64,000 bases of DNA from NCBI GenBank assembly GCA_947490345.1, contig CANLGL010000004.1:71147-135146 (forward strand), read 5' to 3'. Shown here piece by piece: positions 2 through 55,678 of the stretch (position 1 is the stretch's first letter; each line of letters starts with the position of its first letter). This DNA is from Deltaproteobacteria bacterium (GTDB lineage Bacteria; Myxococcota_A; UBA796; SXON01). The notes under the pieces are model-generated. The model did no database searches. It saw only the letters and a program-made list of their open reading frames with translations, and was not told the origin of the DNA. A program made the position numbers and the translations under genes.

Positions 2-562
2 GTCTTCTCAGCGTTTGCGCCTGCGTTCTCGGCGCGGCTCTGGGCGGACCAGCAGGCCAAGGCACTCGCAGCCGAACCGGGCGGCGGGATTCTCCGCGTC
101 CCCTACGAGTCGCTGGTGGCCGAGCCGGAGGCGCAGGTCCGGCGGATCTGCGCGTTCCTCGGCGAGGAGTTCGAGCCAGCGATGCTACGTTGGTTCGAGC
201 GCGAAGAGGCGACGAAGTCGGCTTCCCTTTCAGAGTCTTGGAAGAACACCGCCACGCCCATGCAGACCAGCCGACTCGCCCGCTACCGAAAAGACCTGAG
301 CCCCGAGGACATCGCTGTTGTCGAAGAGATCGCGGGTCCGACGCTCCTGGCGCTGGGCTACCCATTGGACGGTCCAGCGCGCCCGCCGCCGACCGGCATG
401 GCCGCCTGGCTGCGCGAGGTGCGCTGGTCTCTGATCGAGGACTGGTCGCGACTGCGCGTGGAGTGGCGATCGTTGTGGAAGGACAAGAACGTCGGCCGGC
501 GCTGGCGTCGTGCGTGGCTGATGACGACGATCCGGTGGCGGCTGGTGCTTCGTGGGCGCTGA
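2..562 (+). CDS. sulfotransferase family protein, C-terminal part (5' end outside window)
   Basis: Open reading frame entering from the left edge and ending at TGA 560-562; 186 codons are visible. The early part reads ...RVPYESLVAEPEAQVRRI followed by CAFLGEEFEPAML, the typical C-terminal half of PAPS-dependent sulfotransferases (arginine-tyrosine loop, 'E-L-v-x-dPe', then the C-F-L-G helix). The 3'-PB and 5'-PSB loops would lie upstream and cannot be checked. The tail (about residues 130-186) is rich in Trp and Arg and has no recognisable domain. It overlaps the next sulfotransferase by 11 bp, so the two are probably co-transcribed and may modify the same product. The acceptor substrate is unknown. 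Confidence 0.75.
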   Translation, partial: VFSAFAPAFSARLWADQQAKALAAEPGGGILRVPYESLVAEPEAQVRRICAFLGEEFEPAMLRWFEREEATKSASLSESWKNTATPMQTSRLARYRKDLSPEDIAVVEEIAGPTLLALGYPLDGPARPPPTGMAAWLREVRWSLIEDWSRLRVEWRSLWKDKNVGRRWRRAWLMTTIRWRLVLRGR

Positions 563-1814
563 CTTTGCCGCTGTCCGCGAGCGCGTCGCCCGTTTGCGCA
601 GCGGCCTCCCCGCGCTCGACGTGGCCAGTGCCGCGCGCGACGTCGTCGTCATCGCGTCCAGCTCGCGGGGCGGCAGCTCCATCTTCGCGGAGGTGCTGCG
701 TCGGAGCCCATCCCTGCTCCATTTCCGCGCCGAGGTGAATCCGCAGCTGCGCCTTTTCGGCTGTGAGGGCGACGAGGACGACACCGTCCCTGCGGAGTTT
801 CCCATCCCTCCCGGCCTGGGACTCGCGCTCGGCGCCGACTGCGGCCGACCCGCCGATCGGCTCGATGATGACGCTGCCATCGACGCCTTCGCTCGGGAGA
901 TCGCGGCGCGTCTGGTGCTCCAATGGCCGGAGCTGCCCATCGAGCTCGGGCCGGTGCTTGCCGACGTCCGCGCTTGCACCGCGCCCGGACCTTTCGGTGA
1001 CGCCCAGGCCTTCTATGCCAGGTTCTTCGCCCGCCTCGCCGCCCGGTGGCCGAGCTTTCATCCCGGCGCCTACGATCTGGACCGTCGCGGGATTGAGGGA
1101 ATCGGTCCGTCCGTGCCCTTCGTACCCGTGGCGCCCGTCGAAGAGCCCCCCTACGTCCTGCCTTTGCCCTGGCGTCACGCCACCCCCAACGAGCTCGCCA
1201 CCCAGCCGCTGATCATCAAGACGCCGAGCAACGCCTACCGGCTGCCATGGCTGCGTCGGCTCTTTCCCAACGCGCGAGTGCGCGTCTTGCACCTGACGCG
1301 CAACGCCGCCGCCAGCATCAACGGACTCTACGACGGATGGCGTTTTCCCGGCTTTCATAGCCACGAGGTCGGCAATCTCGACATCGGCGGATACTCCGAC
1401 ACCACCCCCGGCGGCGACCGCTGGTGGAAGTTCGACCGGCCCCCGGGCTGGCGCGCCTATAGCCACGCACCGTTAGAGCAGGTTTGCGCTTATCAATGGA
1501 CCTCCGCGCATCGGGCGGTCCTCGCCGAAACGGCCAGCGACTCCTTCTCTCTCCGATTCGAGGACGTTCTCGGGTCGCGACAACGGCAGGAAGATGCGAT
1601 GGGCCGGCTGTCGGATTGGCTGGGCGCGCCCGTTCATGACAAGCTTGCGGGGGTGCTGGCGCAGGGGCTTCCGCTGGTTATGGCGACCGAACAACCCCGC
1701 CATCGTCGCTGGTTTGCTCGGGTGGAGATGCTCGGCCCGGTGTGCGCCCAGCCCGAGGTGCGCGCGGTGCTCGACGCCCTGGGGTACGTCGGCGATCCGA
1801 CCGGGTGGGAGTAG
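552..1814 (+). CDS. sulfotransferase family protein
   Basis: 420 residues from a GTG start overlapping the preceding stop by 11 bp. Residues 33-43 (VIASSSRGGSS) form a P-loop-like 5'-phosphosulfate-binding motif, as in bacterial GSSRSGTS-type sulfotransferases. Around residues 245-260 the segment LHLTRNAAASINGLYDG resembles the 3'-phosphate-binding loop (Arg250 then Ser255), but with a shorter Arg-Ser spacing than usual. The family transfers sulfate from PAPS to hydroxyl or amine groups in the cytoplasm. It belongs to a + strand run with another sulfotransferase and an amidinotransferase-fold enzyme, which hints at assembly of a sulfated small molecule or glycan. Family assignment is fairly secure; the substrate is not. 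Confidence 0.75.
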   Translation: MGADFAAVRERVARLRSGLPALDVASAARDVVVIASSSRGGSSIFAEVLRRSPSLLHFRAEVNPQLRLFGCEGDEDDTVPAEFPIPPGLGLALGADCGRPADRLDDDAAIDAFAREIAARLVLQWPELPIELGPVLADVRACTAPGPFGDAQAFYARFFARLAARWPSFHPGAYDLDRRGIEGIGPSVPFVPVAPVEEPPYVLPLPWRHATPNELATQPLIIKTPSNAYRLPWLRRLFPNARVRVLHLTRNAAASINGLYDGWRFPGFHSHEVGNLDIGGYSDTTPGGDRWWKFDRPPGWRAYSHAPLEQVCAYQWTSAHRAVLAETASDSFSLRFEDVLGSRQRQEDAMGRLSDWLGAPVHDKLAGVLAQGLPLVMATEQPRHRRWFARVEMLGPVCAQPEVRAVLDALGYVGDPTGWE

Positions 1815-1829
1815 GGTTACTCCGCCACC

Positions 1830-2762
1830 ATGCTCCCCTCCACCCTCAAGGGCCCCGGCTGGCGCGACCGCGCCGGCTCCCATGCCGTGGACGTGGCGGC
1901 CGGCTCCCACTGGGCGCCGTTCCGGGTGTCCAGCCCGGTGGGCCGCCTCCGCGCGGTGTTGCTGACCTGGCCCGGCGACGAACTCGCCTACGAGGGTACC
2001 CCCGCCGATTGGTTGATGGCGGCGCGCCCCGACCTCAGGGCCATGCGTGAGGAGGCGAGCGGGATCGCGGCGTTCTACGAGTCCGTCGGCGCACAGGTCC
2101 ACTGGATCCGTCCTGCAGCGCCCGCACCGCCGAACCTCGTCTTCGCGTGCGACCTGTTCGTGATGACGCCGGAAGGTGCCATCCTCGGGCGGATGGGGGC
2201 GGGACAGCGCGCCGGCGAAGAACGCTGGGCCGCCCGTGCGTTGCTGGACGCCGGCGTGCCGATCCTGTCGACGCCGCGGGGAACCGCGACACTGGAAGGC
2301 GCCGACGTCCTGTGGGTGCGTCCGGACCTGGTCCTGGTCGGGCTCGGCAACCGGACCAACGAAGCGGGGTTTCTGACGGTCGGCCGGGTGCTCGCCGACC
2401 AGGGCGTGCGCTGCGTCGGCGTGGAGCTGCCCCCGACCGTGCAACACCTCCTGGGCAGCATCAACTTCGTCGACGACGACCTCTGCGTGGCCTACGATGC
2501 CACCCCGTCAATGCGCGCGGCGCTTGCCGACGCCGGCGTGCGCACCCTCGATTTCGTCGATGTGGCCGAGGTGACCGAGGCACGGGCGCTCAACTTCGTG
2601 GCGGTGAGTCGTCGTGAGATCGTGATGCCGGCGCGGGCGCCACACACCCGCGCCCGACTCGAAGCGGCAGGGGTGCGCTGCCATGAGCTCGTCGTCGATC
2701 AGTACCTTCGTGCCGAGGGCGCTCTGGGCTGCCTCACCGGCATCCTGTCCCGCGACGACTGA
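1830..2762 (+). CDS. amidinotransferase-fold enzyme (DDAH / arginine deiminase-like)
   Basis: 310 residues, ATG start 15 bp after the sulfotransferase stop. The sequence follows the pentein fold of the guanidine-modifying superfamily: an N-terminal 'fRVSSPVGRLRAVLLTWP' strand, the substrate-binding region NLVFACDLFVM, the acidic LEGADVLWV segment, a His in VQHLLGSINFVDDD and a C-terminal nucleophilic Cys301 in GALGCLTGIL. Characterised relatives hydrolyse methylated arginines, deiminate arginine or transfer amidino groups. The Cys-His-acid set appears present, so it is probably active. Sequence alone does not separate hydrolase from transferase. Its position between sulfotransferases and a sulfatase-fold lipoprotein suggests a guanidino-containing substrate, but this is inference. 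Confidence 0.8.
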   Translation: MLPSTLKGPGWRDRAGSHAVDVAAGSHWAPFRVSSPVGRLRAVLLTWPGDELAYEGTPADWLMAARPDLRAMREEASGIAAFYESVGAQVHWIRPAAPAPPNLVFACDLFVMTPEGAILGRMGAGQRAGEERWAARALLDAGVPILSTPRGTATLEGADVLWVRPDLVLVGLGNRTNEAGFLTVGRVLADQGVRCVGVELPPTVQHLLGSINFVDDDLCVAYDATPSMRAALADAGVRTLDFVDVAEVTEARALNFVAVSRREIVMPARAPHTRARLEAAGVRCHELVVDQYLRAEGALGCLTGILSRDD

Positions 2763-2801: not shown

Positions 2802-4208
2802 ATGACCGCCACGCTCTTGTTCGCCCTCGTCGCCTGCAACACGGACGCCACGGCTCCCGAGCTGAAGGCCCCCGTCGCCCCTCCCGCCCCCGTGGGGCCC
2901 AACTTCGACTACTCCTCCGACCATAAAAACCTGAGCATCATCCTGGTGAGCATGGACGCGCTGCGCGCCGACCACACCGGTCTTGGGGGCGGCGCATTCA
3001 CGCCGAACCTCGACGTCTTCCAGAAAGAAGCGGTGGCCTTCAAAAACGCGACCTCGGCGGCCCCATGGACCGTCCCCGCCCACATGGCAATTTTCACCGG
3101 TCGCTGGCCCACCCACCACGGCGTCACCAACAAGCTGATCCCCGACCCCGCGGGCGGAAAGGAGCTGATCTTCGACAAGCTCGAGGACAGCATCCCGCTC
3201 TTGCCCGACACGCTCATCGCGAACGGCTGGGAGGCGGTCGGGTTCACGGGGGGTGCGGGCGTCTCCGGGAAGTTTGGCTACAACCGTGGTTTCACCAGCT
3301 ACCTGGACGACAAGACCTTTGCCGGGATGGACTACAGCGGCCCGCCGGCAATGCAGTGGCTCACCGAGCACAAAGACGGCCACTTCTTCCTGTTCTTCCA
3401 CGGCTACGACGCGCACGGTCAGCACATCGTCGGCAAGACGGCAAAAGAGATCGACCCGGCCTACGCCGGAGCGATGGATGGCAGCATTGAGGAGCAGGCC
3501 AAGCTCCGCGAAGCGGGTCTAGCCAGCATCGTCAATCCGGGCGACCCGCCCAAGGGCGACATCTCTCCTGACGACGCCGCCTTCTTGCTCAAGGTCTACC
3601 AGGAGAAAGTGCGCGAGGCGGACGCCCGCTTGGGCCTGTTCTTCGCCAAGGTCAAGGAGCTCGGCCTCTATGACAAGAGCATCATCGTGGTCCTGGCCGA
3701 CCACGGCGAAGAGTTCATGGAGCACGGCTACCTCGATCACGGCGCCACGCTCTGCGAGCACCAGCTCCACGTGCCGCTGATGATCCGCTTCCCCAAGGGT
3801 GAAGGGGCGCGCGTCGTGGACACCGCCGTTCGGACCATCGACACCTTCCCGACGCTCTTGGACGCGCTTGGGCTCCAGCCGCCCGCCGACATCGACGGCA
3901 AGAGTCTGATCCCACTCTTGCGCGGCGAGGCCGTGGACCTCCCCATTCACGCCGAGTCCGACTACCGGTTGTTCGTGCACCTGCGGTCCAGCCGGGTCGG
4001 CGACAAGAAGCTCGTTCTGGACCTCGAAGACGGGCAGCGCTCCCTCTTCGATCTATCGGTGGACCCCGAGGAGAAAATGGACCTCTCCGCTTCGGATGCC
4101 CGCACCACGTACGAGATCGAGCAGGACGTGCGCGGGTGGATGGGCACGATGAAGAGTGACCCCAATGCCTTCTTGGGCGTGAAGGAAGAACACATCAAGC
4201 TGTTCTGA
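2802..4208 (+). CDS. sulfatase-fold (alkaline phosphatase superfamily) lipoprotein
   Basis: 468 residues. It starts with a short lipoprotein signal with lipobox L9-V-A-C12, followed by an Ala/Pro linker, so it should be exported and lipid-anchored. The catalytic core begins at about residue 44: ILVSMDALRADHTGLGG supplies metal-binding Asp, SAAPWTVPAHMAIFTGRWPTHHG covers the nucleophile site, and VVLADHGEEFMEHG supplies the distal Asp-His metal ligands. The position that carries Cys or Ser (the formylglycine precursor) in true sulfatases is Thr90 here (T-V-P-A-H in place of C-x-P-x-R). A phosphoester or phosphonate hydrolase or transferase with a Thr nucleophile is therefore more likely than a formylglycine sulfatase. 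It follows the amidinotransferase gene by 39 bp, with GCGAGG upstream as a weak ribosome site. Confidence 0.75.
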   Translation: MTATLLFALVACNTDATAPELKAPVAPPAPVGPNFDYSSDHKNLSIILVSMDALRADHTGLGGGAFTPNLDVFQKEAVAFKNATSAAPWTVPAHMAIFTGRWPTHHGVTNKLIPDPAGGKELIFDKLEDSIPLLPDTLIANGWEAVGFTGGAGVSGKFGYNRGFTSYLDDKTFAGMDYSGPPAMQWLTEHKDGHFFLFFHGYDAHGQHIVGKTAKEIDPAYAGAMDGSIEEQAKLREAGLASIVNPGDPPKGDISPDDAAFLLKVYQEKVREADARLGLFFAKVKELGLYDKSIIVVLADHGEEFMEHGYLDHGATLCEHQLHVPLMIRFPKGEGARVVDTAVRTIDTFPTLLDALGLQPPADIDGKSLIPLLRGEAVDLPIHAESDYRLFVHLRSSRVGDKKLVLDLEDGQRSLFDLSVDPEEKMDLSASDARTTYEIEQDVRGWMGTMKSDPNAFLGVKEEHIKLF

Positions 4209-5930: not shown

Positions 5931-6383
5931 GTGGCCGAATCGACCCTCCCGGCAGCGCGGTACACGCCGCCCAAGCTCGACGACACCCTCACGCGGGAAC
6001 ACCTCGAAGCGGCGCTGCGCGACGAAGCCGTCGCCGCGGTCGAGGCGTCCTGGTTCGCCCGCATCGCCGAGATCGAAGGGGAGCCCGAGGCGGCGCGCGC
6101 CCTCCGAGAGATCGCCGAACAACACAACGTCAACGCCCGGGGCACGCTGGACCTGCTGCTGCGCGCGCGGGAGCCGTTGACTGGACGGGTGGTGGGCGCC
6201 ACCGCCCAGAACATCGCCGCGTTGGAGCGCTTCTACGCCGAGGACGCGCTGTCCGAGGCGCGGAGGGCCTCAGCGGCGCGGCGCGAAGGGTTCTCCGACA
6301 TCGGGAGCTGGTTTGAAAGTGTGGGGCGGCTCCGCGCCGCGCACGCCGCCCGGCTCGCGACGATCCGGACTGGGACCGACTGA
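5931..6383 (+). CDS. rubrerythrin-like ferritin-fold protein without rubredoxin domain
   Basis: 150 residues, GTG start 13 bp after the radical SAM gene; its TGA overlaps the next ATG by 1 bp (TGATG). The helical pattern matches rubrerythrins: ALREIAEQHNVNARGTLDLLL corresponds to the 'diAeqEtgHaxghLdfL' helix, PLTGRVVGATAQNIAALERFYAED to the loop and third helix, and ARREGFSDIGSWFESVGRLRAAHAARL to the 'EGFxEIAdWFetLaxAEksHaxrF' helix. Some diiron-ligand positions seem altered: the last helix has R-x-x-H where E-x-x-H is expected. The rubredoxin-like FeS domain is absent. It may be a redox or oxygen-protection partner of the radical SAM enzyme, or a structural protein that has lost full metal binding. 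Confidence 0.6.
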   Translation: MAESTLPAARYTPPKLDDTLTREHLEAALRDEAVAAVEASWFARIAEIEGEPEAARALREIAEQHNVNARGTLDLLLRAREPLTGRVVGATAQNIAALERFYAEDALSEARRASAARREGFSDIGSWFESVGRLRAAHAARLATIRTGTD

Positions 6384-8332
6384 TGGCTGACCCGCGGGAA
6401 CCGGTCACCCGCTACGATGCCGACAGCATCGTGGTTCTGGAGGGGTTGCAGGCGGTGCGGATGCGCCCGGCCATGTACGTCGGCAGCACGGGCTCCGAAG
6501 GCGTGATGCAGTTGGTCGTGGAGGTGCTCCAGAACTCGCTCGACGAAGCGCTGGCGGGCCACGCGTCTCGTATCGACGTTTCGGTGGACGCCGAGGGCCG
6601 TTGGGTCATCGCCGACAATGGCCGCGGTATTCCGGTGGAGACACACAGCTCGGGCCGACCGATTCCCGAGGTGCTGGTCACCGAACTCCATGCGGGGGGG
6701 AAGTTCAAGGAAGGCGCCTACCGGCTGCCGGGTGGGCTCCACGGGGTGGGCCTGACCTGCGTGAACGGCTTGTCGTCCAGCTTCGAGCTCGAGGTGCGTC
6801 GGGATGGCGGACGGTGGGTGGGCCGGTGGGCCGCCGGCGAGGCCGTGGCGCCGTTCCAGCGCGTCGGCGACGCTGCCGACTGTGGCACCACCGTCCGCTT
6901 CACCGCCGACGCGGTCATCTTCGGCGGGGCGGCGGCTGACCCCGACGCGGTGGAGCGCTGGCTCCGCGCCCAGTCCTGGCTCACGTCCGGGCTGTCCTGC
7001 ACCTTCCGCCGGCGCGGGAGCGAAGTTCGATTCTCGTCCGATGAGGGCCTCGGCGGCTTCGCGCGCTGGTTGGGTGAAGCGCAAGAGCTCGTACACGCCG
7101 ACCCGGTGGTGGTGTCGGGAGAGGCCGTCGGCATCCAGGTCGACGCCGCCCTGCTCTGGACCCGCGCGTTCGCCGAGCATGTCGAGTGTTTCGTGAATCA
7201 CGTGCACACCCCGCTCGGCGGCGCGCACACCGACGGCCTCCGCGCGGCCATCGGGCACGCGCTCACCCGCTACGCGCGCGATGCCCGGCTGATCGACGCT
7301 ACCGAGCCGCTGGAAGGAAGCGACACGATGGAGGGCCTGGTCGCGGTGCTGTCGGTGCGGATGCGCGACCCGCACTTCGAGGGTCAGACCAAGACTCGCC
7401 TGTTGGATCCCATCGCGGGCCAGGCCGTCGAAAAGGCCGTTGGCGTCGCGCTCGCTGAGTGGTTGCGCGGGCACCCGGCGGATGCAGCGGCGGTGGTCGG
7501 GCGCGCGATCGAAGCCGGGCGGGCACGGATGGCCTCGCGGCGTGCCAGTGAGCGCGCCCGCTACGAACGCGTCGAGCACCTGGTCGACAAGGACATCTAC
7601 CGCCAGCAGTTCGGCATCCGCAGCAAGAACTGGCACACCTCGGCGGACTGGATCACCAACGCCGGGCTGCTCGGTCTGCATGGCGGCTCCAGCCAACTCG
7701 CGGAAGACGCGGTCGTGCTGGACGTCTGCTGCGGCTCCGGCGTGGTCGGCAACAGCTTCCGTGGAAAAGTTGGGAAGATCATCGGGCTGGACCTGACGCC
7801 TGAGATGGTGGCGCTGGCGCGCACCCGGCTCGACGAGGTCGTGCAGGGTGACGTGTACGACATCCCATTCCCCGACGCGACCTTCGACGGCGTGTGCAAC
7901 CGCGAGGTGCTGCATCTGCTTCCGCAGCCCGAACGCCCACTCTCGGAGATCTTTCGGGTCTTGAAGCCCGGCGGGCAGTTCGTCGTGGGCCAGTGGGTGC
8001 CCTTCTCCGCGATCGACGGCCCGTGGATGTTCCAGGTGGTGAAGAAGAAGCAGCCGCTGTTCGTGAACAACCTCTACGACGAAGACATGCGCGCGCTCCT
8101 TGCCCAGGCCGGCTTCGAACGCCTCACGACGCAGGAGTACCTCCAGTGGGAGGACATCGACAACTGGATCGCCACCTGGGAAACACCCCAGCTCCACCGG
8201 CACCAGATTCGCGACCTGTACCACCACTGCCCGGCTGAAGTGCGCGCGGTGCACCCCTTCGAGATCTCGCCCACCGGCGCCATCCGGGACTGTTGGCGCT
8301 GGGTGATCTACTCGGCGTTCAAGCCGGGATGA
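6383..8332 (+). CDS. GyrB-type ATPase/transducer fused to a SAM-dependent methyltransferase
   Basis: 649 residues in one frame. Residues 1-396 match the N-terminal half of DNA gyrase B: the dimerisation arm and DADSIVVLEGLQAVRMRPAMYVG, ATPase motifs with E47 and N51 (EVLQNSLDEALAGH), D78-N-G-R-G82, HAGGKF and GGLHGVG (117-123), then a complete transducer ending in FEGQTKTRLL. There Q335 and K337 fall at the same residue numbers as the ATP-contacting pair of E. coli GyrB. The TOPRIM and C-terminal parts are missing. Instead, residues about 397-649 form a class I methyltransferase: VLDVCCGSG (445-453), acidic D470 in IIGLDLTPEM, GDVYDIPFPDATFD, REVLHLL and RVLKPGG. Every ATPase residue I can check is intact, so it should bind ATP and probably dimerise. 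It cannot act as a topoisomerase. The methyl acceptor is unknown; the radical SAM and rubrerythrin-like genes are translationally coupled upstream. Confidence 0.85.
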   Translation: MADPREPVTRYDADSIVVLEGLQAVRMRPAMYVGSTGSEGVMQLVVEVLQNSLDEALAGHASRIDVSVDAEGRWVIADNGRGIPVETHSSGRPIPEVLVTELHAGGKFKEGAYRLPGGLHGVGLTCVNGLSSSFELEVRRDGGRWVGRWAAGEAVAPFQRVGDAADCGTTVRFTADAVIFGGAAADPDAVERWLRAQSWLTSGLSCTFRRRGSEVRFSSDEGLGGFARWLGEAQELVHADPVVVSGEAVGIQVDAALLWTRAFAEHVECFVNHVHTPLGGAHTDGLRAAIGHALTRYARDARLIDATEPLEGSDTMEGLVAVLSVRMRDPHFEGQTKTRLLDPIAGQAVEKAVGVALAEWLRGHPADAAAVVGRAIEAGRARMASRRASERARYERVEHLVDKDIYRQQFGIRSKNWHTSADWITNAGLLGLHGGSSQLAEDAVVLDVCCGSGVVGNSFRGKVGKIIGLDLTPEMVALARTRLDEVVQGDVYDIPFPDATFDGVCNREVLHLLPQPERPLSEIFRVLKPGGQFVVGQWVPFSAIDGPWMFQVVKKKQPLFVNNLYDEDMRALLAQAGFERLTTQEYLQWEDIDNWIATWETPQLHRHQIRDLYHHCPAEVRAVHPFEISPTGAIRDCWRWVIYSAFKPG

Positions 8333-9785
8333 TCGGCCTTTCTATCCGCCCGTCGGCGTGGCGTGCGAAGCGTCCTTCGTCCCGCGGATGCACCGGGTCG
8401 GACGCCGGCCACGGCCAGCCACCGAAGTTGGTGCGCCGGTAGTCGGCGAAGGCCTCCTGGATCTCGGCGGCGGTGTTCATCACGAAGGGTCCGTGCTGGG
8501 CCACGGGCTCGCCGATGGGGCGCCCCTGCAGCAAGAGCAACTCACAGGTCGACCCCGCTACGAGCGTGGCGGGAAGCTCACTGCGGAGCTGCAGTGCGTG
8601 ATTTGCTGGCGATGCGATACCGTCGAGCGTGAGCGCGGAGCCCGAGAAGAAGTAGAGCACCCGATTGAGGCCGGCCACCGCCGCCGGGATGGTGAAGGTG
8701 GCGCCAGCGTCGAGGCGGATTGTCCAGATCCAGACGTGATTTGCGGCGTCAGCGGCCCAGGAGTGCGGGGGCGGGGGCGGGGGCTTGGCGTCGACCAGCG
8801 CCCCGGCCACCACGGTCACGGTCGCGCCCTGCCCGGTGGGTCCAGACGCCACCACCGGGATCGACTCGTTCCACAACATCGAGAAGTGGGGCGGCACGCG
8901 CTTGGAGCGGCCCGGAAGATTGATCCAGATCTGGAAGAGCTCGGCGGGGTTGTCGCCATCTTGGCGGACGAGGGGAAACATCTCGCTGTGGACGATGCCG
9001 TCGCCCGCGGTCATCCACTGGGCGTCCCCACGCCCGAAGCGGGCCGCAGCCCCCAGCGAGTCGGAGTGGTCGATGTACCCGCTGCGCGCGACGGTGACGG
9101 TCTCAAACCCGCGATGGGGATGCGAGGGGAAGCCGGGCACGGTTTTCCCGTGGTACATGCTCCATCCGTCCTTGCCGGCGAAGTCCTGGCCCAGTTCCCG
9201 ACCGGCCAGGGACGACGTCGGCCCCATGTGCGCGTTTCCCGGGCCGTAGGCGTCGAGGTGGTGGACGCAGAACAGGAAGGGATCAAGGGTGGGCCAGGGC
9301 GGGGCGCCCAGCGGCACAGTGCGCAGGAGAGGGCTCATCCGCACGCTTAGCGCGCTGGATGGCGAGATGAGCACGGCGCGCCCGCCCGTCTCGACCAGCA
9401 CCGTGCACGCCGGATCGGTGACCCACGCGCGCGCGACCCGCCCGTCCACCCGGAACCAGCCGTACCACCCGAACCCCCCGTTGATGGCGAAGAGGTCCTT
9501 TCCGACGCCGCTGACGGGCGCTTCGGCCAGCCAAGGCACGCTGACGCGTCGCAGACGGGTGACCACCGTCAGCGAGTCGCCATCGCGCTCGTAGCGAAGC
9601 GGCGCGTCAGCGAGGACCCAAAAAAGCGCGGCCCCTACGGCGGTGACGAAGCTGGCCGCGATCCACGGCGGCCGGCCGGCCTGGGCATCGGCCGCCAGCG
9701 CGTAGACCGCGGCGAGCCACAAGAGCACGGCCAGGGTGCCGAGCACACGCGCGCGGAGGGGTAGGCTCGCGGGCAGGCGCGTCAC
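8319..9785 (-). CDS. pirin-family protein with N-terminal membrane PH-like domain
   Basis: 488 residues, convergent with the methyltransferase fusion (14-bp overlap). Residues about 13-33 and 40-60 are two hydrophobic helices. Residues about 62-150 look like a small bacterial PH-like beta domain (RYERDGDSLTVVTRLRRVSVPW, RVARAWVTDPACTVLVETG). From about residue 165 the sequence is a pirin of the cupin superfamily: HHLDAYGPG, FPSHPHRGFETVTVARSGYIDHSDSLG, GDAQWMTAGDGIVHSEMF and PAELFQIWINLPGRSK. The His and Glu residues that bind the iron in pirins are present. Pirins are quercetinase-like or regulatory proteins. The membrane and PH-like extension would tether this one to the inner face of the membrane, an arrangement I do not recognise from known pirins. 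The start at 9785 is supported because both transmembrane helices lie near the N terminus. Confidence 0.75.
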   Translation of the reverse strand: MTRLPASLPLRARVLGTLAVLLWLAAVYALAADAQAGRPPWIAASFVTAVGAALFWVLADAPLRYERDGDSLTVVTRLRRVSVPWLAEAPVSGVGKDLFAINGGFGWYGWFRVDGRVARAWVTDPACTVLVETGGRAVLISPSSALSVRMSPLLRTVPLGAPPWPTLDPFLFCVHHLDAYGPGNAHMGPTSSLAGRELGQDFAGKDGWSMYHGKTVPGFPSHPHRGFETVTVARSGYIDHSDSLGAAARFGRGDAQWMTAGDGIVHSEMFPLVRQDGDNPAELFQIWINLPGRSKRVPPHFSMLWNESIPVVASGPTGQGATVTVVAGALVDAKPPPPPPHSWAADAANHVWIWTIRLDAGATFTIPAAVAGLNRVLYFFSGSALTLDGIASPANHALQLRSELPATLVAGSTCELLLLQGRPIGEPVAQHGPFVMNTAAEIQEAFADYRRTNFGGWPWPASDPVHPRDEGRFARHADGRIERPIIPA

Positions 9786-12856: not shown

Positions 12857-13339
12857 CTACTCCGCCGGCCAGGCGTACTCGGCGCCCTCCGACAGGTGCC
12901 CATCGTCGTCCATCGCGTAGAGCTGCACGGTTCCGGTGAGCGTGCAGGACTCTTCGTCTTCGGTGGACGTCCAGCTGGCGAGCAGGGCGCCATTGGCGAA
13001 GACCGCCGGCCGCTCGGTTCCCGGGCGGTCGTTCTGGACGATGACGGCGAAGTTGTCCATCACGGTGATGTCGTCCTCGCCCTGCGGGTCGGTGGCGGTC
13101 CCGTTGACGATCCAGGTGGGTTCGGAATCGACGTTCACCGTGCAGGTGACCGAGGTGATCTCGACCACAGGCGCGTTGACGTCCACATCGACGTCCGAGT
13201 CGGAGTCCGCGTCGCTGTCCGCATCGGTGTCGGCGTCGGCATCGGCATCGGCATCGGCGGAATCGTCCAGCGCGACCGGATCACCGAACAGGCCGCAGCC
13301 GCCGAAGAACAGTGGGAGCGAGAGGGAAAGACGAAGCAT
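12857..13339 (-). CDS. small lipoprotein with Asp-Ala/Asp-Ser repeat linker
   Basis: 160 residues. Lipoprotein signal MLRLSLSLPLFFGGC, then a low-complexity linker of alternating Asp with Ala, Thr, Ser or Val (about residues 27-54), then a compact domain beginning PVVEITSVTCTV. This contains two Cys and beta-strand-like text (WIVNGTATDPQGEDDITV, ESCTLTGTVQLYAMDDDG), reminiscent of an Ig or PKD-like fold. It lies 9 bp downstream of the sulfatase-fold gene on the same strand and is probably in its operon. Its stop abuts that of the convergent ATP-binding lipoprotein. Function unknown. Confidence 0.7.
   Translation of the reverse strand: MLRLSLSLPLFFGGCGLFGDPVALDDSADADADADADTDADSDADSDSDVDVDVNAPVVEITSVTCTVNVDSEPTWIVNGTATDPQGEDDITVMDNFAVIVQNDRPGTERPAVFANGALLASWTSTEDEESCTLTGTVQLYAMDDDGHLSEGAEYAWPAE
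13179..13260. repeat. degenerate hexanucleotide repeat encoding the (Asp-Ala/Ser/Val) linker
   Basis: The + strand shows repeated gc(a/g)tcg and g(a/t)gtcc hexamers; the last part has four near-identical gcatcg units. On the coding (-) strand each hexamer specifies an Asp-X dipeptide. Repeats of this kind can change length by slippage, which would alter linker length without a frameshift. Confidence 0.7.
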
Positions 13340-38109: not shown

Positions 38110-38991
38110 GTGGGCACCGGCCTTCTGGAGCTGTTTTCTGGCATCGGCGCTGCGGGCATCGCCTGGGGTGGACCGGTGGTGGGCGCCATCGACCAGAACT
38201 CGCACGCCAACACGACGTACCTGGAGAACCACGACCTGGCACCGCGCTCGTGGAACCTCGCCGGGGTCACGGCGGCCCAGCTCGGCGCCTTCTCAGCGGA
38301 GCGCTGGTGGTTGTCGCCCCCCTGCCAACCGTTCACCGTACGCGGCGCGCGGCGCGACCTGGACGACCCTCGTGTGAAGCCGCTCTTGCGCGTCCTCGCC
38401 ATCCTGTGCGAGCTGCGCCCACGCGTCGTCGCCATGGAAAACGTGCCCGGATTCGTCGCGTCCGCCACCCGCGGAGAGCTGCGCGCTGCCTTGATCACAG
38501 CGGGGTACACCCTCGACGAACGACTCCTGTGCCCGACGTCGTTGGGGGTGCCGATGCGGCGGCAGCGCTACTACCTCGTCGCCCGCCTTGGGCAAGGCCA
38601 GGGCCATCGGTCGCGATTCGAGACGCCGGTGCCCGTCTCTCCCACGCGCCCGCTCTCCAGCTTTGTCGACGCCGAGCCTGATCCAGCGCTGTACCTGAGC
38701 GAGGCGGTGATCGCGACCTGGGGGCACTCCGTCAATATTCTGGACAGCGAGGACCCAGCCGCGGTCGCGACGTGCTTCACCTCGGCCTACGGCCGCTCGC
38801 CCGTTCGATCCGGCAGCTACCTCCGCGATGGGGGCGGTGTCCGCTACTTCGCACCCGAGGAGATCCTTCGCCTGTTGGGCTTTCCCGACACCTTCCGCTT
38901 TCCAGAGCCGCTGGCCCGTCCCGTTCGGTGGGACCTCGCCGGCAACAGTCTCAGCGTGGACGCGGTTCGGGCGCTGCGTCTGGAAACTTGA
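38110..38991 (+). CDS. Dnmt2 (TRDMT1)-type cytosine-C5 methyltransferase, probable tRNA methyltransferase
   Basis: 293 residues, GTG start 10 bp after the lipoprotein gene. C5-methyltransferase motifs: I LLELFSGIGAAGIAWGG, IV SPPCQPFT with catalytic Cys72, VI MENVPGF (Glu110), VIII RRQRYYLVA and X GNSLSVDAV. Details beyond the general family match eukaryotic Dnmt2: SPPCQPFTxxGxxxDxxDxR, ENVxGFxxSxTR, PTSLGVPxxRxRYYLVA, the Dnmt2-signature C222-F-T followed by a Tyr (CFTSAYG), and RYFAPEEILRLLGFPDTFRFPE before motif X. Dnmt2 enzymes methylate C38 of tRNA-Asp or, in Geobacter, tRNA-Glu. No restriction endonuclease is adjacent, which argues against a restriction-modification role. Confidence 0.85.
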   Translation: MGTGLLELFSGIGAAGIAWGGPVVGAIDQNSHANTTYLENHDLAPRSWNLAGVTAAQLGAFSAERWWLSPPCQPFTVRGARRDLDDPRVKPLLRVLAILCELRPRVVAMENVPGFVASATRGELRAALITAGYTLDERLLCPTSLGVPMRRQRYYLVARLGQGQGHRSRFETPVPVSPTRPLSSFVDAEPDPALYLSEAVIATWGHSVNILDSEDPAAVATCFTSAYGRSPVRSGSYLRDGGGVRYFAPEEILRLLGFPDTFRFPEPLARPVRWDLAGNSLSVDAVRALRLET

Positions 38992-54895: not shown

Positions 54896-55678
54896 ATGCA
54901 ACCGAACCCCGACACCATTCGCCAAACCGTCCGTGATCAATACGGCGCGATCGCCCGCGAGGGCACGAGTTGCTGCGCGCCGTCCTGCTGCACGCCCGGC
55001 GCCAGCGCCTCGCCGAAGGGCCAGCTTCTGGGCTATTCGGCCGCGGAGGAAGCCGCCGCGCCTGCCGGAAGCAACCTCGGCCTGGGCTGCGGCAACCCCC
55101 AGGCCATCGCCAGCCTCCAGCTCGGCGAGACCGTGCTCGACCTGGGCAGCGGCGCTGGCTTCGACTGCTTCCTCGCCGCGCGAGCGGTGGGGCCCAACGG
55201 CCAGATCATCGGCGTCGACATGACGCCGGACATGCTCGCCCGCGCCAGGACCAACGCCCACAAAGCATCCGTCGCCAACGTCGAATTTCGCCTCGGCGAG
55301 ATCGAGCGGCTCCCCGTCCGCGATGGCGAGGTAGACGTGGTCATCTCGAACTGTGTGGTGAACCTGTCGCCCGACAAGCCGGCCGTCTACCGTGAGGCGT
55401 TCAGAGCGCTCCGGCCGGGCGGTCGTCTCGCGATCGCGGACGTCGTCGCGCGGGAGCCGCTTGCGCCCGAGTTCCAGGCCGATCTCGCGCTGCTCGTGGG
55501 CTGCGTCGCCGGCGCGGCCACGGTGGCGGAAGTGGGGGAGGCGCTCCGGACGACTGGGTTTGTCGACATCCGGATTGAGGAGAAGGCCGGCAGCCGAGAG
55601 CTGGTCGAGAGCTGGGCGCCGGGACACCCCGCCGCCAACCTCGTGATGTCCGCCACCATCCAGGCGCGCAAGCCGTGA
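54896..55678 (+). CDS. arsM: arsenite S-adenosylmethionine methyltransferase
   Basis: 260 residues. SAM-binding VLDLGSGAGFDCFLAA, acidic IGVDMTPDML, GEIERLPVRDGEVDVVISNCVVNLSPDKPAVYREAFRALRPGGRLAIADVV. ArsM Cys signature: N-terminal double pair C26-C27/C31-C32, GLGCGNP, ISNCVVNL and LLVGCVAGA, which supply the As(III)-binding thiols. It converts arsenite to methylated, partly volatile species. Divergent from aqpS-arsC across 67 bp and overlapping the sigma-factor gene by 4 bp. Confidence 0.9.
   Translation: MQPNPDTIRQTVRDQYGAIAREGTSCCAPSCCTPGASASPKGQLLGYSAAEEAAAPAGSNLGLGCGNPQAIASLQLGETVLDLGSGAGFDCFLAARAVGPNGQIIGVDMTPDMLARARTNAHKASVANVEFRLGEIERLPVRDGEVDVVISNCVVNLSPDKPAVYREAFRALRPGGRLAIADVVAREPLAPEFQADLALLVGCVAGAATVAEVGEALRTTGFVDIRIEEKAGSRELVESWAPGHPAANLVMSATIQARKP

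Follow-up and report, generated by a model that had tools for sequence, protein, structure and literature searches.

Clamps built from a GHKL ATPase domain and a transducer are textbook DNA machines. The window analysed here, a stretch of 64,000 nucleotides from a Deltaproteobacteria bacterium (contig CANLGL010000004.1 of assembly GCA_947490345.1), contains a gene in which the ATPase-transducer half of the gyrase subunit GyrB is fused to a class I methyltransferase of the kind that uses S-adenosylmethionine (SAM). The closest described system is the N-terminal fragment of GyrB and ParE, the clamp of the type IIA topoisomerases, which shares with the fusion the GHKL domain, the arm, the lysine of the QTK loop and the ATP-site residues listed below. 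The fusion differs from it in having neither TOPRIM nor the C-terminal region, in the loss of most basic residues of the clamp cavity, and in its attached methyltransferase and metabolic gene cluster. Class I methyltransferases of the UbiE/Methyltransf_11 type share with it a complete domain with SAM motif I, recognised by Pfam and NCBIfam models, but the fusion carries an in-frame GyrB ATPase and lies far below the NCBIfam cut-offs among the matches listed. The MORC and paraMORC proteins resemble it as GHKL-S5 ATPases tied to methylation; in the available excerpt of PMC2292703, however, the DNA methylases are neighbour genes, found together with helicases and nucleases, whereas the fusion is one protein with a methyltransferase like those acting on small molecules. 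No helicase, nuclease or DNA methylase occurs among the recurrent annotated neighbours of the fusions, genes present at one locus only being mostly unsearched. PDB entry 3cwv ("DNA gyrase, B subunit, truncated") is likewise a truncated GyrB-like protein, but it scores 74.6 bits to the fusion and its 369 residues leave no room for a methyltransferase. We found no description of a GyrB-methyltransferase fusion in searches of an open-access library, and no Pfam or NCBIfam model among the matches listed (25 of 32 for NCBIfam) spans the whole protein.

We favour the reading that an ATP-operated dimer clamp derived from GyrB gates or positions a tailoring SAM methyltransferase in a lineage-specific pathway, with a cargo other than DNA, and we put its probability somewhat below one half (about 0.45). 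If ATP does gate a methylation that is not of DNA, this would be a categorically new use of the GHKL-transducer clamp. A family that keeps the ATP engine and loses the grip on DNA would show that such a motor is transferable to metabolism, and would provide a natural test of the role of the ATP cycle apart from DNA. The fusion also draws attention to unexplored genes of little-known bacteria that are inherited together with it (B12 radical SAM, sulfotransferase-like and DDAH-like).

Architecture, distribution and selection of the fusion

The frame runs uninterrupted for 649 codons from the ATG at 6383 to the stop at 8332. HATPase_c (E 1.5e-11) and DNA_gyraseB (E 6.9e-40) of Pfam match fusion residues 39-175 and 222-390, both with scores that exceed the gathering cut-off, and Methyltransf_11 matches residues 446-535 with E 1.1e-22 and 80.9 bits against a gathering cut-off of 21.2; TOPRIM has no Pfam match in the protein at E<=0.001. 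Residues 1-395 make up the GyrB ATPase-transducer half and residues 396-649 the methyltransferase, which follows with no linker at the expected start of TOPRIM. The fusion scores 356 bits against the NCBIfam gyrB equivalog, below its cut-off of 882.4, and comparison with solved structures identifies the first part as GyrB (E 5.7e-86) and the second as the small methyltransferase 1vl5 (E 2.7e-13). At the junction the transducer helix, ending in '..RRASERARY', is followed directly by the methyltransferase, and the alignment has no gap there in any of the 22 homologues that reach this point. Much of the ATPase-transducer half is good in an AlphaFold model of the whole fusion, in which a predicted helix of residues 365-400 spans the junction and the predicted local distance difference test score (pLDDT) is below 50 from residue 390.

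The preliminary description of this locus, made from the sequence of the window, had proposed a single 649-residue frame of GyrB half and methyltransferase without TOPRIM, and the open frame, the Pfam matches and 22 further genomes bear it out. The residues that it named are likewise all in place (E47, N51, D78, GGLHGVG, Q335 and K337, with LDVCCGSG at 446-453), and a search for the same domain order, which it had suggested, found this order in those 22 genomes, where the neighbouring genes recur as well. The comparison that it proposed with the cell's own gyrase is also possible, as the host genome encodes a separate full-length GyrB (815 residues by the gene caller, in a frame of 841) and a ParE-like protein (637-residue frame).

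SAM motif I is present in 22 of 22 fusions. The methyltransferase part, residues 396-649, equals its unfused paralogues in length (247-255 residues), and because of this match we take it to be complete; such unfused paralogues adjoin some of the fusion loci. Its best NCBIfam methyltransferase scores are with small-molecule families (arsenite, UbiE, BioC), all far below cut-off among the 25 of 32 matches listed. We considered and rejected an assignment as an arsenite methyltransferase, since the best of these matches are ArsM-type but fall far short of the cut-off. Elsewhere in the window, a methyltransferase frame at 54896-55678 is 36% identical to the fused methyltransferase over the core and is rich in cysteine near its start, and a frame at 38110-38991 is a candidate cytosine-C5 DNA methyltransferase, judged from the start of its sequence.

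Within the order, the fusion occurs in 23 of 63 genomes, this one included, and is whole in one frame in 21 of the 23. The 22 further fusions are 47-94% identical to the query, and 20 of them are whole in one frame, which means that the homologues are not simply separate proteins; the fusion of G037 is truncated at the end of a contig, the halves of that of G008 sit at the ends of two contigs, and in G011 a stop precedes the start chosen for the gene. Within the family, 17 of 22 genomes carry it. Outside the order, neither the 71 genomes of the class nor a phylum sample of 377 yielded a fusion (E<=1e-110); the phylum search scored three candidates per genome, and distant fusions or short fragments would escape it at this threshold. 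In plasmid and phage collections, no record matched 80% or more of the fusion query at one place. A scan of public genomes with six short peptide patterns returned 17 loci, 11 of which are fusions (L029-L039) apparently from the same assemblies as the order genomes, and hence not further cases, and five of which encode proteins of GyrB type that do have a TOPRIM region (L040-L044, of which L042 is cut). The last, L045:1366-1884 on a delta-proteobacterial contig, is a GyrB-like frame of 214 codons that is degenerate and lacks GGLHGVG. A separate frame in the same order, L161:2360-3829 of G023, encodes a GyrB ATPase-transducer protein of 490 codons that is too short for TOPRIM and has RTR in place of QTK.

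In a tree of 22 fusion GyrB halves, 24 GyrBs and 16 ParEs, the ParEs form one group and the GyrBs another, and the fusions fall outside the well-supported ParE group. The tree implies two changes for the fusion state, or possibly one; G038 is placed beside GyrB with weak support. The fused methyltransferase halves cluster tightly, separate from the unfused paralogues, and the cut-off half of G008 lies inside their cluster. Relative to the nearest relative, nonsynonymous (dN) and synonymous (dS) divergence by NG86 is 0.057 and 0.70 for the GyrB half (dN/dS about 0.08) and 0.005 and 0.26 for the methyltransferase half (dN/dS about 0.02). Between the same two genomes, the radical-SAM gene has a dN of 0.020 and a dS of 0.57, and the rubrerythrin-like gene a dN of 0.003 and a dS of 0.45. 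As judged by these substitution rates, both halves of the fusion are under purifying selection. The fusion is old, and it is nearly certain that it is a real, selected protein.

ATPase site and clamp cavity

Residues of the ATP site were counted in 22 fusions, with G037 left out, and are named by the E. coli GyrB residues to which we take them to correspond in number and role. All 22 fusions keep the equivalents of E42, N46, D73, G77, P79 and K103, of H116-G117-V118-G119, and of R136, T165, Q335 and K337; 21 of 22 keep that of R76, and 20 of 20 that of the arm tyrosine Y5. This conservation holds despite a faster overall divergence of the fused GyrB half. By alignment, the fusion keeps the ATP-binding and hydrolysis residues of the GyrB engine. 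The earlier claim that these residues line up closely with E. coli GyrB therefore stands for the key positions in all 22 homologues and gives way at the D45, V120 and K110 sites, which are taken up below.

The cavity enclosed by the clamp presents a different picture. According to the available excerpt of PMC6030046, a structure of ParE with trapped DNA has K291, R321, K346, R353, R396 and R400 among its cavity residues; changes at the first four strongly cut strand passage, and changes at R396 and R400 reduce it about twofold. These sites correspond to fusion residues 287, 316, 339, 346, 389 and 393 in a mapping inferred by spacing, not by residue-by-residue alignment with the published ParE. 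All six are basic in 43 of 44 cellular GyrBs and five in the remaining one, and five are basic in 16 of 16 ParEs, whereas the fusions have only two to four (21 fusions; G008 is cut, and G037, aligned separately, has three). The losses are heaviest at site 346, where 21 of 22 fusions have G, T or A, and at site 389, where 21 of 21 have S, G or A. A basic residue stands at site 316 in 8 of 22 fusions and at site 339 in 14 of 22. The mean net charge of the transducer is -3.0 in the fusions compared with 0.7 and 0.3 in GyrB. Since the basic cavity residues are largely gone, the clamp of the fusion probably no longer holds DNA. The ATP-driven clamp of the preliminary description is supported in so far as the fusion and its hydrolysis residues are conserved, but an ability to hold DNA was probably not retained with it.

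Genes inherited with the fusion

Genes were called with a simple in-house script. In 21 of the 22 fusion loci with upstream sequence, the gene immediately upstream, on the same strand, encodes a rubrerythrin-like protein; in the window the stop of this gene overlaps the ATG of the fusion by one base (Table 1). Compared with the ordinary rubrerythrin of the genome at seven positions that we take to be the diiron ligands, the 21 rubrerythrin-like proteins keep between none and four, three of them starting after the first ligand in the gene calls. An ordinary rubrerythrin is retained in the same genome at L134:583-996.

Table 1. Features of the fusion gene and of the genes upstream of it in the window.
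Feature	Position	Strand	Basis
GyrB ATPase/transducer-SAM methyltransferase fusion gene, 649 residues	6383..8332	+	open reading frame
HATPase_c (GHKL) domain, residues 39-175	6497..6907	+	Pfam
GyrB transducer (DNA_gyraseB), residues 222-390	7046..7552	+	Pfam
QTK loop, Q335-T336-K337	7385..7393	+	sequence motif
Complete class I SAM methyltransferase, residues 396-649	7568..8329	+	Pfam core 446-535; extent from unfused paralogues
SAM motif I, LDVCCGSG, residues 446-453	7718..7741	+	sequence motif
Rubrerythrin-like protein, 150 residues, degenerate metal site	5931..6383	+	family match and ligand comparison
B12-binding radical SAM enzyme, 538 residues	4301..5917	+	family match
Sulfatase-like protein, alkaline phosphatase superfamily	2802..4208	+	family match
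DDAH/arginine-deiminase-like enzyme, co-inherited	1830..2762	+	family match
Sulfotransferase-like protein, co-inherited	552..1814	+	Pfam match below gathering score
Sulfotransferase (Sulfotransfer_3), cut by window start	2..562	+	whole gene at G000:C4:70692-71708

In 16 of 22 loci the B12-binding radical-SAM gene stops 431-609 bases short of the fusion. Among the 377 genomes the fusion and the radical-SAM gene are each found in 23, and 22 have both; the fusion occurs without the radical-SAM gene only in G037, and the radical-SAM gene without the fusion only in G001, cut by a contig end. In G014, G015, G019 and G043 the two genes lie on separate contigs, and for this reason close linkage alone does not explain their co-inheritance. 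Of 42 genomes tested, which exclude the order's family f3 (21 genomes, fusion-free), the DDAH-like and the sulfotransferase-like gene are each present in the same 25, namely all 23 fusion genomes together with G001 and G045 (23 of 23 with the fusion against 2 of 19 others). A QueG-like neighbour tracks the fusion loosely (19 of 23 against 8 of 19), and the third gene downstream, taken as a control, does not track it (18 of 23 against 12 of 19). In genus g6, the fusion and the radical-SAM, DDAH-like and sulfotransferase-like genes are all present in G015 and G019, and all four are missing from G017, at 93% completeness, an absence that looks like joint loss. The radical SAM, DDAH-like, sulfotransferase-like and sulfatase-like partners suggest the tailoring of a small molecule or lipid.

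Two other frames of the window deserve mention. The frame at 8319-9785 encodes a pirin with an N-terminal extension, a region called in G009 as two genes of 339 and 128 residues, and that at 12857-13339 a small lipoprotein-like protein rich in Asp-Ala, Asp-Ser and Asp-Val repeats.

How the clamp might be used

The kept ATPase, the lost DNA grip and the metabolic gene cluster lead us to propose that the clamp now serves the methyltransferase. In such a mechanism, two subunits would bind ATP in their GHKL domains, the N-terminal arms would swap and the clamp would close, and the transducer helices would draw the two C-terminal methyltransferase domains together at the place that TOPRIM takes in gyrase. 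The closed clamp could then admit or hold a substrate or partner, possibly supplied by the upstream rubrerythrin-like protein, until hydrolysis, sensed through the QTK loop, reopened it. The cargo would be other than DNA, and the B12 radical-SAM enzyme, the DDAH-like enzyme and the sulfotransferase-like protein would work in the same lineage-specific pathway as the fusion. In this scheme the dimerisation driven by ATP, the gating of methylation, the nature of the cargo, the part played by the rubrerythrin-like protein and the sharing of one pathway are all inferred. More specifically, the topoisomerase clamp may have left DNA altogether, with its ATP-dependent closure on an intermediate, or on a rubrerythrin-like carrier, timing a SAM methylation in a new natural-product pathway; this version is tentative, and we hold it to be possible rather than probable.

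Several observations count against a gated clamp with a cargo other than DNA. The methyltransferase half has no confident structural model, with a mean pLDDT of 34.3 when modelled alone. Over 190 genome pairs the mean pairwise identity of the fused GyrB half is 0.56 compared with 0.69 for cellular GyrB, the fused half being the less identical in 162 of them, and that of the methyltransferase half is 0.72. Within the ATP site, the equivalent of D45 is Q in 20 of 22 fusions (cellular GyrBs have D in 43 of 44 and X in one), that of V120 is L in 16 of 22, that of G102 is changed in 2 of 22, and that of K110 is variable. The fusion locus of G038 has no adjacent rubrerythrin-like gene, nor did a profile search of that locus find one. 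The Fisher p-values for co-occurrence of the fusion with the radical-SAM gene (2e-33 in 377 genomes, 1e-14 in 63) ignore the kinship of the genomes and so overstate independence. In the cavity, 19 of 22 fusions retain K or R at site 287 (K291 equivalent) and 21 of 21 have R at site 393 (R400 equivalent), and the ParEs of fusion genomes likewise have no basic residue at 389 (R396 site). Given these two basic sites and the similar state of the ParEs, some contact of the clamp with nucleic acid may persist. The GHKL part is also slightly less acidic in the fusion, with a mean net charge of -4.5 compared with -6.8 and -6.7 in GyrB.

The GyrB half might instead be a passive scaffold that only dimerises, with ATP bound structurally and no gating. 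In all 190 genome pairs the methyltransferase half is more conserved than the GyrB half fused to it, as would suit such a role, but the equivalents of E42, Q335 and K337 are kept in every one of the 22 fusions, which is unexpected for a passive dimer, and we regard this explanation as unlikely.

Alternatively, the fusion could confer self-resistance as a decoy, its GyrB half capturing an inhibitor of the GyrB ATP site, produced by the pathway itself or encountered by the cell, and its methyltransferase modifying the captured drug. All 22 fusions retain the equivalents of D73, R136 and T165, which we take to be inhibitor contacts, and the gene cluster resembles a set for tailoring small molecules. 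However, the residues that we assign to hydrolysis and dimerisation and not to drug binding, the equivalents of E42, Y5, Q335 and K337, are invariant wherever covered, and the core pocket residues are alike in the cellular GyrBs of 21 carrier and 23 non-carrier genomes. A mild difference is seen at the V167 site, which is V in 21 of 21 carriers compared with V in 17 and I in 6 non-carriers; the I94 site is V or A in carriers and non-carriers alike. In the available excerpt of PMC8992657, the pathway of the GyrB inhibitor clorobiocin includes a suspected B12 radical-SAM methylase, CloN6, which would fit a drug-related cluster, but the annotated genes of the present cluster are of the tailoring type only and include no known inhibitor-assembly enzyme. 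The decoy raised in the preliminary description is weakened by the invariant hydrolysis and dimerisation residues and by the absence of a consistent difference in the cellular pockets, and we think it quite unlikely. Should the fusion bind GyrB-site ligands, it would point to an unknown gyrase inhibitor instead.

A third possibility is that the clamp closes on DNA or RNA and that the methyltransferase modifies nucleic acid. The same fold traps DNA in topoisomerases (excerpt of PMC6030046), GHKL-S5 ATPases adjoin DNA methylases in restriction systems (excerpt of PMC2292703), two of the six cavity sites are mostly basic, and the GHKL part has the reduced acidity noted above. On the other hand, the remaining basic cavity residues are largely gone, the transducer is more acidic than that of GyrB, the methyltransferase scores best with small-molecule families, albeit below cut-off, and the recurrent annotated neighbours are metabolic. 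A nucleic-acid methyltransferase clamp is in our view decidedly improbable.

An artefact or a decaying chance fusion, suggested only by the two contigs that hold the halves of G008, is of negligible probability: those halves sit at contig ends, the low dN/dS in both halves argues that the fusion is neither decaying nor made by assembly, and an assembly join or frameshift is ruled out by the fusions of 22 other genomes.

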